Source: Enterococcus hirae ATCC 9790
GTDB lineage: Bacteria > Bacillota > Bacilli > Lactobacillales > Enterococcaceae
Direction of reading: 5' to 3'
Assembly: GCF_000271405.2 (NCBI RefSeq)
Contig: NC_018081.1
Location: 837,852 to 901,851, forward strand
DNA length: 64,000 nucleotides
The notes beneath the pieces are model-generated. The model searched no databases. It had not been told where the DNA came from and saw only the letters and a program-made list of their open reading frames with translations. This document shows positions 6,383 to 45,243 of the stretch, piece by piece (within the stretch, counting starts at the first letter, position 1; the number at the start of each line of letters is the position of its first letter). Position numbers and translations under genes: made by a program.

Positions 6383-6410
6383 ACTCCCCAAACCGATAGA
6401 TTTGGGGAGT
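6383..6410 (-). terminator. Hairpin after rplQ, possible alpha-operon terminator
   Basis: ACTCCCCAAA and TTTGGGGAGT form a perfect 10-bp stem around an 8-base loop. On the minus strand a T7 run lies about 20 bases downstream, after a short CACT/AGTG stem, so termination may be spread over both hairpins. The 6226-6497 gap holds no gene. Confidence 0.5.
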
Positions 6411-6497
6411 AGCGCTGAGCTAGACTCGGAAGAGTTAACTTCCAACATCATAACACTCTAAAAGAATCATCTATAAAGTGATGTTATTAGTGTGATT

Positions 6498-40897: not shown

Positions 40898-42030
40898 TAT
40901 AATTCTCCTCCTTCTTGACTCTGATTTGTTGGTTTCGATTCAACAGTCTCCACGATCGCTTCTTGTTTTTTACCTTGGAAGAATTTCGCCATAATGAAAC
41001 GAATCAAGAAGTTGATCCCAACAAAGAAAATAATCAATGCAATCGATACATTTACGATTTCAAATGGTATACCGGCACCTGTTTGCATCCCCAAACCACC
41101 GATTTTCAAGATACTGAACAAGAGTGCTGAAAGTAAAATTCCAATCGCTGAACCAGAACCTAACAGTGACACAGCCATTCCGTCAAATCCGATGGCTAAG
41201 GAAGTTGTTTGAACGAAAAAGTTTTGATACGTTCCTAATCCTTCGACTACTCCACCAAGTCCTGCTAAAGCGCCTGAAATCATCATGGAGAAGACGATCG
41301 TACGTTTACTACTCATTCCAGCATACTCAGAAGCAAAAGGATTTAGACCTACCGAACGAATTTCAAAGCCTAACGTCGTTTTCTTCATCAATAGCCAAAC
41401 AACAACCAGTGCAATCAATGCTAAAAACAAACCAGCATTTACACGAGAACCGCCAAACATTTGTGTCAGCCAAGGTAATCTAAGAGAAGCATTTTGCCCA
41501 ATCAAATTTGAAGAATCTAAGCTTGAACGATACGTATCTGGCATGATGTCATGTAAAGCAAAAGTACTTAAATAAAGTAAAATATAGTTCATCATAATAG
41601 TGACGATTACTTCACTTGTACCGAAAAAGGCTCTTAATACCCCTGGGATAGCCGCAGCCAAAGCTCCTGCCAAAGCACCTAAAATCACACAAGTCGGTAA
41701 TAAAATGACTTTTGGCAGATCAGGAAAGGCAAGTGCTACCCACACACTAACGATCCAACCACAGAGTGCTTGTCCCGAAAGCCCGATATTGAAGAATCCT
41801 GCTGAGTTCGCAACAGAAAAACCTAATGCAGTAAAAATCAACGGTGTTGCTTGCCGTAATGTTTCACCAATACTTCTTTGAGAACCAAGGGACGCATTTA
41901 ACATTGAAGAATAACCTTGGCCTGGGTTATAACCAAAAGCTGCCATCAAGATAGCACCTAAAACTAAACCTAGAATTACCGAAAAAATAGGAACTAGGAG
42001 ATTACGTATCTTTTCATTGCGATCATTCAT
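40897..42030 (-). CDS. Nucleoside ABC transporter permease NupB-type
   Basis: First permease, 377 residues, with about ten hydrophobic segments and IRSVGLNPFASEYAGMSSKR as the coupling loop. The ATG at 42030 is preferred over an upstream TTG because GGTTGGTGG lies before it; it overlaps the ATPase gene by 8 bases. The C-terminal tail (VETVESKPTNQSQEGGEL) is hydrophilic. Confidence 0.92.
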   Translation of the reverse strand: MNDRNEKIRNLLVPIFSVILGLVLGAILMAAFGYNPGQGYSSMLNASLGSQRSIGETLRQATPLIFTALGFSVANSAGFFNIGLSGQALCGWIVSVWVALAFPDLPKVILLPTCVILGALAGALAAAIPGVLRAFFGTSEVIVTIMMNYILLYLSTFALHDIMPDTYRSSLDSSNLIGQNASLRLPWLTQMFGGSRVNAGLFLALIALVVVWLLMKKTTLGFEIRSVGLNPFASEYAGMSSKRTIVFSMMISGALAGLGGVVEGLGTYQNFFVQTTSLAIGFDGMAVSLLGSGSAIGILLSALLFSILKIGGLGMQTGAGIPFEIVNVSIALIIFFVGINFLIRFIMAKFFQGKKQEAIVETVESKPTNQSQEGGEL

Positions 42031-43585
42031 GTGCGCCACCAACCTTTTCTAACTCTTTTCTTGCTTCTTCTAAAGAATAGCCCGCCATAAGTAATCCTAG
42101 TTCATTTTCAGAAGTTTCTTTTGGATCAACGATTCCCACGATTTTTCCTTCGTGGAGTACCGCAATACGATCAGAAACATTCAAAATTTCTTCTAATTCA
42201 AAACTAATCAATAAGACCGCTTTGTATTTGTCTCTTTGTTCAATCAAACGTTTATGAATAAACTCGATTGCTCCAACATCTAGTCCACGTGTCGGATTAG
42301 CAACGATCAACAAGTCAGGATCACGATCGATTTCCCGAGCGATGATTGCTTTTTGTTGGTTCCCACCTGATAATGCTTTTGCTGGCACAAGTTCATTCGT
42401 TGTCCGAACATCATACTCTTCGATTAATTCACGTGCATGTTCATTTATCAAAGAATAATTCAATAAGCCATTCCTACTGTAAGGTTTTTGGTAGTAATTT
42501 TGTAAAGCAATATTCTCCGCTAACGTCATATCCAGAACTAAGCCATACTTATGACGGTCTTCGGGCACATGTCCTACACCAGCCTCCGTAATTTTTCTTG
42601 GCTTTTTATTCGTGATATCTTCATCTTTTAAGCGGATCGTTCCACTTTCTGCTTTACGTAAACCGGTTAACGCCTGGATCAATTCTGACTGTCCGTTACC
42701 ATCAATACCAGCAATTCCTAAAACTTCTCCTGCTCGTACTTCTAAACTTAAGTCTTTGACTGCGTCCAATCCTCGGTTTTCTTTAACCACTAGATTTTCA
42801 ATCGATAACACAACTTCTTGAGGCTGACTTTCTTTCTTCATTGTCTTAAATGAAACCGTACGTCCAACCATCATATCTGCCAATTGTTGTGAAGAGACAT
42901 CTTTTACATTTACTGTACCAATCCCTTTACCACGACGGATAACTGTACAACGATCTGCTACAGCTTTAATCTCATCTAACTTATGGGTGATCAAAATGAT
43001 CGATTTTCCTTCTTTGACCAACTCTTTCATGATTACAATCAGTTCGTCAATCTCTTGTGGCGTTAATACTGCTGTAGGTTCGTCAAAAATCAAGACATCT
43101 GCCCCACGATAAAGTGTTTTTAAAATTTCTACCCGTTGTTCCATTCCAACAGAGATATCTCGGACATACGCATCAGGATTGACCGATAAACCATATTGTT
43201 CAGAAAGCTTTTGGATTTCTTCACGTGCTTGGCGACGATCAAGTACCCCTGCTCGACTTGGCTCACTTCCCAAAACAATATTTTCAGTAACAGTAAATGC
43301 ATCCACAAGCATAAAGTGCTGATGGACCATTCCGATACCTAGCTGGTTCGCTTTTGTCGGACTTGTAATTTTCACTTCTTTCCCATGCATCAGTATTTCA
43401 CCTGATGTTGGCTCTAAAAGGCCTGAGAGCACATTCATCAAGGTTGATTTTCCGGCACCATTTTCTCCAAGTAAAGCGTGGATCTCTCCTGCTTTCACTT
43501 GCAAGTTGATGTTGTCATTTGCTTTGAACGTACCAAACTGTTTGGTGATATTCCGCATTTCGATGACAATATTTTCTTGAACCAC
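42023..43585 (-). CDS. Nucleoside ABC transporter ATPase NupA-type
   Basis: A 520-residue protein with two ABC domains. The first has Walker A GENGAGKSTLMNVLSG (about 37-52) and Walker B VLIFDEPTAVLTPQ. The second has the degenerate GIDGNGQSELIQALTG typical of sugar and nucleoside importers, then LSGGNQQKAIIAREI. It is separated from bmpA by a 500-base gap that contains the tandem hairpins. Confidence 0.93.
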   Translation of the reverse strand: MVQENIVIEMRNITKQFGTFKANDNINLQVKAGEIHALLGENGAGKSTLMNVLSGLLEPTSGEILMHGKEVKITSPTKANQLGIGMVHQHFMLVDAFTVTENIVLGSEPSRAGVLDRRQAREEIQKLSEQYGLSVNPDAYVRDISVGMEQRVEILKTLYRGADVLIFDEPTAVLTPQEIDELIVIMKELVKEGKSIILITHKLDEIKAVADRCTVIRRGKGIGTVNVKDVSSQQLADMMVGRTVSFKTMKKESQPQEVVLSIENLVVKENRGLDAVKDLSLEVRAGEVLGIAGIDGNGQSELIQALTGLRKAESGTIRLKDEDITNKKPRKITEAGVGHVPEDRHKYGLVLDMTLAENIALQNYYQKPYSRNGLLNYSLINEHARELIEEYDVRTTNELVPAKALSGGNQQKAIIAREIDRDPDLLIVANPTRGLDVGAIEFIHKRLIEQRDKYKAVLLISFELEEILNVSDRIAVLHEGKIVGIVDPKETSENELGLLMAGYSLEEARKELEKVGGAHE

Positions 43586-43687
43586 AATTTTTCACATCCT
43601 AACGATTTCTATCTAGGCAACGATTAACAAAGATTTTTCATAAAATCTCAAATTGAAGCAAAAACTTCAGGGGATTATTCCCTTATC

Positions 43688-44030
43688 AAGAGGCTGTGAA
43701 AAGAGCGTTTTGACCTGATCATTAAGGAAGAAAATCTCGAAACAGCTTTTCATGTTTTGAGATTTTTTGACTTAATGCCGAAGGTCAGCTCTTTGAATGC
43801 CGTTTAGCAAGAGGCTGTGAAAGAAGCGTTTAGCTCCGAGCAAATAAGAGAGGATTTTTTAAAATAGCTTCTCATATTTTTAAAAATCATCGCTTATTGT
43901 TGAGGAGCTGCTTCTTGAACGCCGTTTAGTAAGAGGCTGTGAGCAGCATGTTCTACTTCAAGAATTAAGAACAAAAAAACGAAAATAGCTTCTCAGCAAC
44001 ATCTTGATAAAGAAACAATCGTTAGTTATT
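43688..44030. repeat. Tandem ~122-bp hairpin units in the bmpA-nupA gap
   Basis: Units begin AAGAGGCTGTGA at 43688, 43809 and 43931 (period 121-122). Units 1 and 2 end with TTGAA(T/C)GCCGTTTAG. Each folds into a four-part stem. Unit 1 pairs 43700-43706 with 43788-43794, 43711-43716 with 43782-43787, 43721-43726 with 43771-43776, and 43731-43743 with 43754-43766. Unit 2 pairs 43821-43827 with 43910-43916, 43832-43837 with 43904-43909, 43843-43848 with 43893-43898, and 43853-43866 with 43875-43888. Arm sequences differ between units but pairing is kept; the loop AGCTT(T/C)TCAT is shared. Unit 3 keeps only the start. No coding sequence is seen in 43586-44087. Confidence 0.8.
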
Positions 44031-44039
44031 TACTAAACC

Positions 44040-44073
44040 ATAGCCTTGTCAAACAATTGTCCAACAAGGCTAT
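44040..44073 (-). terminator. Hairpin at the 3' end of bmpA
   Basis: ATAGCCTTGT and ACAAGGCTAT form a perfect 10-bp stem with a 14-base loop, 14 bases after the bmpA stop. No T run follows, so it is more likely a partial terminator or a 3' stabiliser that raises lipoprotein mRNA relative to the transporter genes. Confidence 0.6.
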
Positions 44074-44087
44074 AGAAATTCGTTTGA

Positions 44088-45170
44088 TTATTTTTCAGGA
44101 GTTTCTGGTACTTTGATATCTCCTGAGATGATTTTTTCTTTTGCTTCATTCACAGCTTTTTCTGCTTTTTCTGAAAGTTGACCTTTTGTGATACCAACAC
44201 CGTCTTCTTTCAATCCGTAAACGGTATGTTCTCCACCAGGGAAATCACCGTCAGCTGATTTTTGAGCTAAGTCTTCAACAACAGTTCCTACACCTTTTAG
44301 AGTTGATGTCAAAGTAAAGTTTTTCTTTTCACCGTTTAAAGTGTATTCGCCTTCGTCCGATTGGTCACGGTCAACCCCGATAACCCAAACTTTTTTGTCG
44401 CCTGATTCGTTTAATGATTTCGCTTCTTGGAATACACCGTTACCAGTACCACCAGATGCGTGGAAAATGATATCTGCATTTTGTGCATACATTCCTTGAG
44501 CAATTGAACGTCCTTTATCTGGCGCTGAGAAGTCTCCTGCATATTGATTCAAGACTTTAATTTCTTTGTTTAAAGCTTTTGCACCAGCATCTACACCAGC
44601 TTTGAATCCTGCGTCAAAACGATCGATTACTTCACCTTTTACCCCACCAATGAAACCAACAGTGTTTGTTTCAGTTGTGTAAGCTGCGGCAATCCCAGCA
44701 AGATAAGAAGCTTCGTTATCTTTAAATGTTGCTGAAACCACGTTGTCTTTGCCGTCGATAACGTCATCAATAATAGCAAAGTTTGTTTCAGGATTTGATG
44801 CAGCTTGCTCTTCAATAGCTGGCTTCAATTTATAACCAATACCAAAGATTGTTTTAAAACCTGCATTCAAAGCTTGGTCAATATTAGGGATATAATCTGA
44901 TTCATTTGCTGATTGGAAATATTGGAACCCATCATTTCCACGTGATAGATCATGATCTTTCCCCCAAGCTTGTAGTCCTTCCCAAGCTGACTGGTTGAAT
45001 GAACGGTCATCAACACCGCCCGTATCTGTGATCAATGCTGCAGTTGCTGTTTTTGAACCGCTGTTTCCACCGGTTGAATCAGTTGAATCTGATCCGCTGC
45101 CACATGCGCCCAATAATAACCCAGCAGATAACGCTACAGCACTTAAACCAAATAATTTTGCTTTTTTCAT
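44088..45170 (-). CDS. bmpA: BmpA-type nucleoside-binding lipoprotein
   Basis: Substrate-binding protein of the nucleoside importer, 360 residues. The start at 45170 (KKAKLFGLSAVALSAGLLLG) lies behind AGGGGG; the frame to 45209 is rejected. The signal peptide ends in a lipobox LLGAC with Cys23 as the lipid-modified residue, followed by a Gly/Ser/Asp-rich linker. The mature part shows ALITDTGGVDDRSFNQSAWEGL and GFIGGVKGEVIDRFDAGFKAG, typical of the Bmp/PnrA family. Confidence 0.94.
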   Translation of the reverse strand: MKKAKLFGLSAVALSAGLLLGACGSGSDSTDSTGGNSGSKTATAALITDTGGVDDRSFNQSAWEGLQAWGKDHDLSRGNDGFQYFQSANESDYIPNIDQALNAGFKTIFGIGYKLKPAIEEQAASNPETNFAIIDDVIDGKDNVVSATFKDNEASYLAGIAAAYTTETNTVGFIGGVKGEVIDRFDAGFKAGVDAGAKALNKEIKVLNQYAGDFSAPDKGRSIAQGMYAQNADIIFHASGGTGNGVFQEAKSLNESGDKKVWVIGVDRDQSDEGEYTLNGEKKNFTLTSTLKGVGTVVEDLAQKSADGDFPGGEHTVYGLKEDGVGITKGQLSEKAEKAVNEAKEKIISGDIKVPETPEK

Positions 45171-45243
45171 TTCTGTAAAGCCCCCTAAAATAATTGTTTT
45201 ATTTTTCAACAGTCAGCTGACTGAATGAACATGAGTGATAATT

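Follow-up and report, generated by a model that had tools for sequence, protein, structure and literature searches.

BOX elements of Streptococcus pneumoniae are intergenic and modular, with a variable number of hairpin-forming modules, and REP/BIME sequences are dispersed 3′-UTR hairpins that have been suggested to stabilise mRNA and are moved by REP-associated Y1 transposases. Closer to the present case are EFAR (Enterococcus faecalis repeats, attributed to Venditti et al. 2007), which are said to be palindromic, to result from a variable assembly of several sequence types and to measure mostly about 170 bp, with two adjacent stem-loops. They were reportedly found inserted into unrelated stem-loops, part of the target stem being kept.

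The feature analysed here lies between a lipoprotein gene and an ABC-ATPase gene, in a window (the whole stretch of DNA analysed) of 64,000 nucleotides of Enterococcus hirae ATCC 9790. It is probably an EFAR-like miniature mobile element in tandem array; copies of the element would replace stem-loops or their apices near gene ends, and the array would then have been remodelled. As in EFAR, dispersed foldable palindromes occur between genes (128 covariance model matches in the genome; 67 clusters, 1 of them at a divergent site) and are assembled from several types (groups of 18, 12 and 10 units plus three single ones, in clusters of 1–5 units). The two-stem-loop layout is represented in E. faecalis, where a second hairpin, common to the copies, follows the unit in 19 of 24 cases, whereas the window array has no terminal hairpin. 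The stem-loop target is seen in E. faecalis and, by comparison with other species, at the window locus, while a genome-wide test in E. hirae was negative. Unlike EFAR, E. hirae copies are often tandem, with up to 5 units of mixed types (two or more units in 27/67 clusters). The array was filed as EFAR-like, that is, the same kind of repeat with tandem mixed arrays as a variant, the likeness being drawn from the description of EFAR. With BOX it shares intergenic, modular hairpins, but its sequence appears to differ from that of BOX. Unlike REP/BIME, it comes from a genome without a Y1 domain and shows no orientation bias by replichore (34:33).

A very similar repeat of E. faecalis is already catalogued as Efa or Efa-1, a point that the first-pass annotation had left open. 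In the passages that mention them, Efa elements are intergenic and lie near the 3′ ends of E. faecalis genes, with unpublished data being cited that Efa RNA may enhance the stability of co-transcribed mRNA (PMC1590033), and Efa-1 is 163 nt long, with 65 members and two adjacent stem-loops (PMC2267715). The intergenic location, the proximity to gene 3′ ends and, in the E. faecalis copies, the adjacent stem-loop pair are common to these elements and to the present ones, whereas the same passages place Efa and Efa-1 in E. faecalis only and describe no arrays (PMC1590033, PMC2267715).

Anatomy and folding of the array

The gap between the two genes (43586-44087) contains two complete hairpin units and a half unit, and a permease gene (PF02653) follows the ABC-ATPase gene. 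The features are as follows, with the gene names of the first-pass annotation in quotation marks.

42023..43585, minus strand: ABC transporter ATPase gene ("nupA"), downstream, an open reading frame (PF00005, 184.8 bits)
43683..43691, plus strand: left arm of the host hairpin, TTATCAAGA, pairing with 44002-44010; by its final bases it overlaps the unit 1 start motif
43688..43808, plus strand: unit 1, type B, 121 nt, apical loop AGCTTTTCAT at 43744-43753 (dG -50.7 kcal/mol, z -7.14)
43809..43930, plus strand: unit 2, type A, 122 nt, apical loop AGCTTCTCAT at 43866-43875 (dG -43.0 kcal/mol, z -5.07; 138.7 bits)
43931..43996, plus strand: half unit, start motif and left arm as far as the loop motif AAAATAGCTTCTCA (43982-43995), seen as repeats (z -1.18)
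44002..44010, plus strand: right arm of the host hairpin, TCTTGATAA, an inverted repeat with 43683-43691 that brackets the array
44040..44073, minus strand: separate host hairpin ATAGCCTTGTT..., an inverted repeat outside the array, conserved in the alignment of relatives
44088..45209, minus strand: Bmp/PnrA-like lipoprotein gene ("bmpA"), upstream, an open reading frame (PF02608, 236.5 bits)

Each unit follows one ground plan, a near-palindrome of about 122 bp. Its ends (AAGAGGYYGTGA ... GAACRCCGTTTA) and its apical loop, close to GYTTYTCA, are fixed, the 5′ arm carries a 4-nt bulge, and the two arms differ in sequence from unit to unit yet remain paired. On the plus strand, units 1 and 2 each fold into one long hairpin, as good a fold being reached by 0/200 dinucleotide shuffles in either case, while the half unit, in which the right arm is absent, folds no better than chance (28/200 shuffles as good). 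The reading strand of the array is antisense to both flanking genes. The minus strand, which is co-transcribed with them, also folds, less stably than the plus strand (-37.4 and -36.5 kcal/mol; z -5.34 and -5.36). The first-pass annotation had described two full units and one partial unit between the two genes, the first two with the same start, loop and end and with unlike arms; the sequence agrees on each point, and the computed folds include, as stems, the arm pairs that it had listed (AAAGAGC/GCTCTTT with TGACCT/AGGTCA, and AAGAAGC/GCTTCTT with AGCTCC/GGAGCT). A search of the array locus against Rfam 15 (E <= 1) gave three matches, all far below the gathering cut-offs of their families.

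Copies, arm types and covariation in the E. hirae genome

The array DNA gave 63 blastn matches in the E. hirae genome. By motif, 48 full units were extracted, of which 43 were aligned (alignment A1) and used to build a covariance model; three units whose arms are mixed or broken were left out, as were two copies of type C, one of which is identical to a kept unit. The model gave the 128 matches mentioned above (E <= 0.01), which include echoes of the same palindromes on the opposite strand, and the best was unit 2 of the window. Of these, 112 were placed in the 67 clusters, the context count omitting 16 that are opposite-strand echoes or weak or partial matches. In A1, 98.3% of the cells pair, against about 51% when partners are slid by one column, and the paired share is 97.6% when all 47 distinct units are taken in. 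Two-sided changes with pairing held were found at 24/38 pairs (14.9 +/- 1.5 in shuffles), with a covariation score of 0.408 against 0.190, the copies being related and not independent. The earlier statement that pairing is kept while sequence changes is thereby borne out, and the covariance model search that had been proposed as its check returned both other copies and covariation, and not the absence of the two. Among 52 matches from other genomes (alignment A2), there is hardly any change at the ends, in the A/T pairs below the apex, at loop positions and at the G with which the 4-nt bulge begins, and much of the stems varies.

The 43 units group as type A (18), type C (12), type B (10) and three single units. 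Since unit 1 of the window belongs to group B and unit 2 to group A, the earlier reader had seen two dispersed subtypes side by side. Mixed arms were found in 3/48 units, with loss of pairs (30, 34 and 35 of 38 kept). In the unit at chromosome position 1552454, type-A outer arms flank a type-C core on both sides and pairing is retained. In addition, a block of two mismatches (columns 43/88 and 46/85) is repaired in 4/18 type-A units, at both positions each time and in no unit at one position alone; the left arm was the repaired one in three units and the right arm in one. Such a two-position repair resembles arm-to-arm copying. These data bear on an alternative origin of the covariation, in which pairing would be kept mainly by mutation, with an arm being copied onto its partner through template switching and arms being swapped when copies recombine. 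Template switching can create and maintain RNA stems, as argued in PMC8794818, and the joint repairs as well as the unit with both outer arms of another type are what such a process would leave. However, the unrepaired block could itself be the derived form, within types a one-sided change keeps a pair more often than it breaks one (37 cells against 18, the cells not being independent), and arm copying alone would not conserve ends and loop across families. As the main cause of the pairing, mutation is considered possible but unlikely.

Candidate routes of mobilisation were searched in the E. hirae genome. The Y1 (HUH) transposase domain PF01797 gave 0 matches, the same search being positive in 5/14 control genomes, and the reverse transcriptase domain PF00078 gave no match; mobilisation of the REP/RAYT type and mobilisation by a reverse transcriptase were rejected on these grounds. 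A preference for the lagging strand was likewise rejected, the clusters being distributed 34:33 by replichore (origin assumed at base 1, terminus at the midpoint).

The same gap in related enterococci

The window lipoprotein is 97% identical to that of E. villorum and 94% to that of E. durans. Among the corresponding gaps of 16 relatives, units were found by the model in three (E. villorum, E. durans and strain 13-SD-W-01) and, within the surrounding 7 kb, in none of the other 13, one of which, E. ratti, carries a remnant recognised by eye. Eight of the 13 (E. lactis, E. thailandicus, two E. mundtii and four further Enterococcus strains) align with a plain hairpin having the arms TTTATNCAAG / TTTGRATAAGGG and a variable apex, and another four have a different gap. 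In E. hirae and E. villorum, the array stands at the apex of this conserved plain hairpin. Read along the unit strand, the array runs B, A, half F in E. hirae and F, A, part of B in E. villorum, and because of this difference the array must have been rebuilt since the two species split.

On the preferred reading, that of an EFAR-like mobile element, the element would replace a stem-loop that was already present, or only its apex, in most cases close to a gene end, so that host arms can remain at both ends. The window array would occupy the apex of the conserved hairpin between the lipoprotein and ABC-ATPase genes and would since have been remodelled by gain, loss and exchange of units. The empty-site evidence at this gap comes from other species and not from strains of E. 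hirae. Genome-wide in E. hirae, the flanking-stem test was negative, with a mean of 5.07 against 5.09 for mismatched flanks (n = 67; 10921/20000 permutations at least as high), under looser end definitions than those of the E. faecalis test described below; a score of 9 was reached by two loci, the window locus and 1554770, where about 1.2 would be expected by chance. The suggestion of the first-pass annotation that the unit might be a mobile or gene-converting element gains support from the dispersed copies, the units of mixed type and the occupied and empty gaps.

The same annotation had also proposed that the array is a locus-specific regulator setting the ratio of lipoprotein to transporter mRNA. 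Its position in an operon gap, the folding of both strands and the conservation, in relatives, of hairpins of the gap itself would suit such a role. However, the copy is antisense and many relatives have no unit, which disfavours a special role in the lipoprotein/ATPase ratio; the unit content differs between E. hirae and E. villorum, and copies stand near many unrelated genes (67 clusters). The proposal as it was worded is weakened by the unit-free gap of 13/16 relatives, eight of them with the plain hairpin, and by the copies near unrelated genes, and it is regarded as highly improbable.

Outside the array, the gap is strongly conserved at the hairpin of 44040-44073, at the host hairpin and over about 50 nt before the ATPase start codon. 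These stretches, which have no Rfam match, could be an undescribed leader or processing element.

Position relative to stop codons and orientation

Gene neighbours of the E. hirae clusters, as of the loci from other genomes and of the E. faecalis copies considered below, were taken from open reading frames and not from annotation. Of the 67 clusters, 31 lie in sense and 17 in antisense orientation between same-direction genes, 16 are convergent, 1 is divergent and 2 have one neighbour; the sense to antisense ratio of 31:17 has by itself a p of 0.06, and the window array is in the minority orientation. The facing stop lies within 65 nt of the start end in 35/47 cases and of the other end in 7/33 (p 3e-6), a comparison that is uneven because many copies have a tail at the other end. 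Indeed, many E. hirae copies end in a terminator-like hairpin as judged by eye; the window array is longer and is without one. Among 38 loci of different genomes, a sense stop lies at most 10 nt from the start motif in 17 and between -45 and +65 nt from it in 26; three of these loci share one deacetylase-gene context and two others share another, and the first count becomes 14/35 once loci with a shared gene context are merged. Within the genus, a unit starting at the stop codon after pepP was found in 7/15 genomes (one a weak remnant), E. hirae and the genome taken as E. mundtii Pe161 being among them and those taken as E. villorum, E. durans and E. ratti having none. After ldh, a sense unit was found by the model in 4/15 genomes, with a weak reversed match in one more and one further start remnant seen by eye.

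The start-to-end strand out-folds its complement in 42/43 units of A1 and 50/52 of A2, and G-U cells exceed A-C cells by 94:12 and 94:20, respectively (by distinct types, 16:7 with p 0.09 and 29:15 with p 0.05). For the 52 units of A2, part of the strand bias comes from the search itself, which used a model of that strand. Taken together with the single divergent site of 67, the excess of sense copies, the stops near the start end, the orientations in E. faecalis (12 sense, 5 antisense and 7 convergent among 24 copies) and the unpublished data on Efa RNA and mRNA stability cited in a passage of PMC1590033, this strand bias is consistent with a structured 3′-UTR RNA kept by selection, whose hairpins would shield the upstream mRNA from 3′ exonucleases or be processed, the copies being retained for this function. 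On the other hand, the window copy is antisense to its mRNA, gaps occupied in one species are empty in its sisters, a folded single-stranded DNA intermediate would yield the same strand bias, and landing near stops can be mere tolerance. Selection for such an RNA is thus a possible but unlikely main explanation. A stabilising effect of the units on the upstream mRNA is nevertheless plausible, and a modest effect on mRNA 3′ ends is possible within the mobile-element reading. According to that reading, copies would persist because landing after stop codons may do little harm, and the value of a single copy is probably small.

Copies in E. faecalis and what they replace

Copies of E. hirae may move as those of E. 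faecalis appear to do. The E. faecalis genome was assigned by identities of 98.7% and 99.2% over two 20-kb stretches to contigs with E. faecalis as stated host, and its units are 97.6% identical in a record named E. faecalis. The model derived from E. hirae found 24 matches in it, all single and none in tandem, with the anatomy and target described for EFAR. When E. faecalis strains were compared, a 176-bp stretch carrying the element corresponded to 43 bp with a 10-bp stem-loop in two other contigs. At a second site, with the roles reversed, a 27-nt apex between GGGACAGGAG and CTCCTGTCCC was replaced by the element and both arms were kept; these arms look like an older remnant of the same repeat family. 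The flanks of the copies pair better with their own partner than with those of other copies (mean 5.8 against 3.8; 0/20000 permutations), a score that was set after inspection of the flanks and that covers 19 copies, 5/24 being omitted because both ends were not found. No overlap was found between the loci of this genome and two further records.

Within one element, E. faecalis strains also differ by three further hairpin-like inserts (44, 51 and 53 nt), so that smaller modules nest within units. Enterococcal repeats are also carried by contigs OR846588, OR846940, OR848276 and PQ520065 (INPHARED, unverified), such contigs being labelled Enterococcus phage Efs 1-1-1, Enterococcus phage IME_EF3 and Listeria phage LM 4-11-1/4-14-1. 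OR846588 and PQ520065 match long chromosome stretches of an E. faecalis-like genome and look like host DNA filed as phage. In PLSDB, NZ_CP143580.1, a 747-kb E. faecalis "plasmid", has 10 places resembling the E. faecalis repeat; it carries ordinary metabolic genes in the stretch examined and may be a chromosome.

Distribution and wider meaning

The model matched 79/105 Enterococcaceae genomes (E <= 1e-4) and 15/15 within the genus, as well as 29/32 of the genomes behind named loci, E. hermanniensis, Enterococcus sp. CU12B and Candidatus Tetragenococcus pullicola being the three without a match. Copy numbers from these multi-genome searches are lower bounds; for the genomes behind named loci, in each of which up to 112 candidates were scored, they are for example at least 103 in E. 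villorum, 111 in E. durans, 82 in E. mundtii, 112 in E. lactis, 28 in E. caccae, 15 in E. avium and 1 in Lapidilactobacillus bayanensis. Among 299 evenly sampled Bacilli genomes, 10 matched at E <= 1e-6, and these belong to two families only, with E. hirae, one other member of the Enterococcaceae and eight genomes of one further family in another order. The units of the eight genomes have the same ends and fold, and their arms are unrelated.

One calibrated model links a repeat described for one species to a single fold that most of the Enterococcaceae sampled possess. Many genomes of the hirae/faecium group give about a hundred matches each, often by stop codons and inside terminator-like hairpins. 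Relative to the open-licence papers with which it was compared, the additions to a known kind of repeat are its occurrence in tandem arrays of mixed type, its wide distribution and its bias towards one strand. One may speculate, with low confidence, that the units are the moving part of a structure-guided exchange of stem-loops that operates without a classical transposase, the fold being read by a dedicated factor or by replication template switching. Conservation of a one-strand fold with fixed ends, a 4-nt 5′ bulge and a fixed loop in at least two Bacilli families is consistent with such an exchange. On that improbable scheme, the arms could have almost any sequence, the target would also be a fold and not a sequence, and paired arm sets could be exchanged together. 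Two questions become testable. One concerns the agent that moves an element targeted to a fold; the other is whether selection or copying between arms underlies the covariation in families of this type. Covariation in neighbouring copies does not by itself show a local regulatory RNA.

Outside chromosomes, a polysaccharide deacetylase gene of enterococcal and lactococcal plasmids has a TAG stop that belongs to a repeat unit. At least 60 plasmid records hold a similar unit, most of the 30 listed having it at this gene, with which the repeat element has travelled. Among 60 of the 2114 matching records, none gave a usable empty site at the gene, and one record that was examined runs into other DNA soon past the unit.

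Finally, when Rfam 15 was run across the window, the array matched no family and the only family found was L17DE at 6384-6459, which is the L17 ribosomal protein downstream element (RF01708), on the minus strand, with 60.1 bits.
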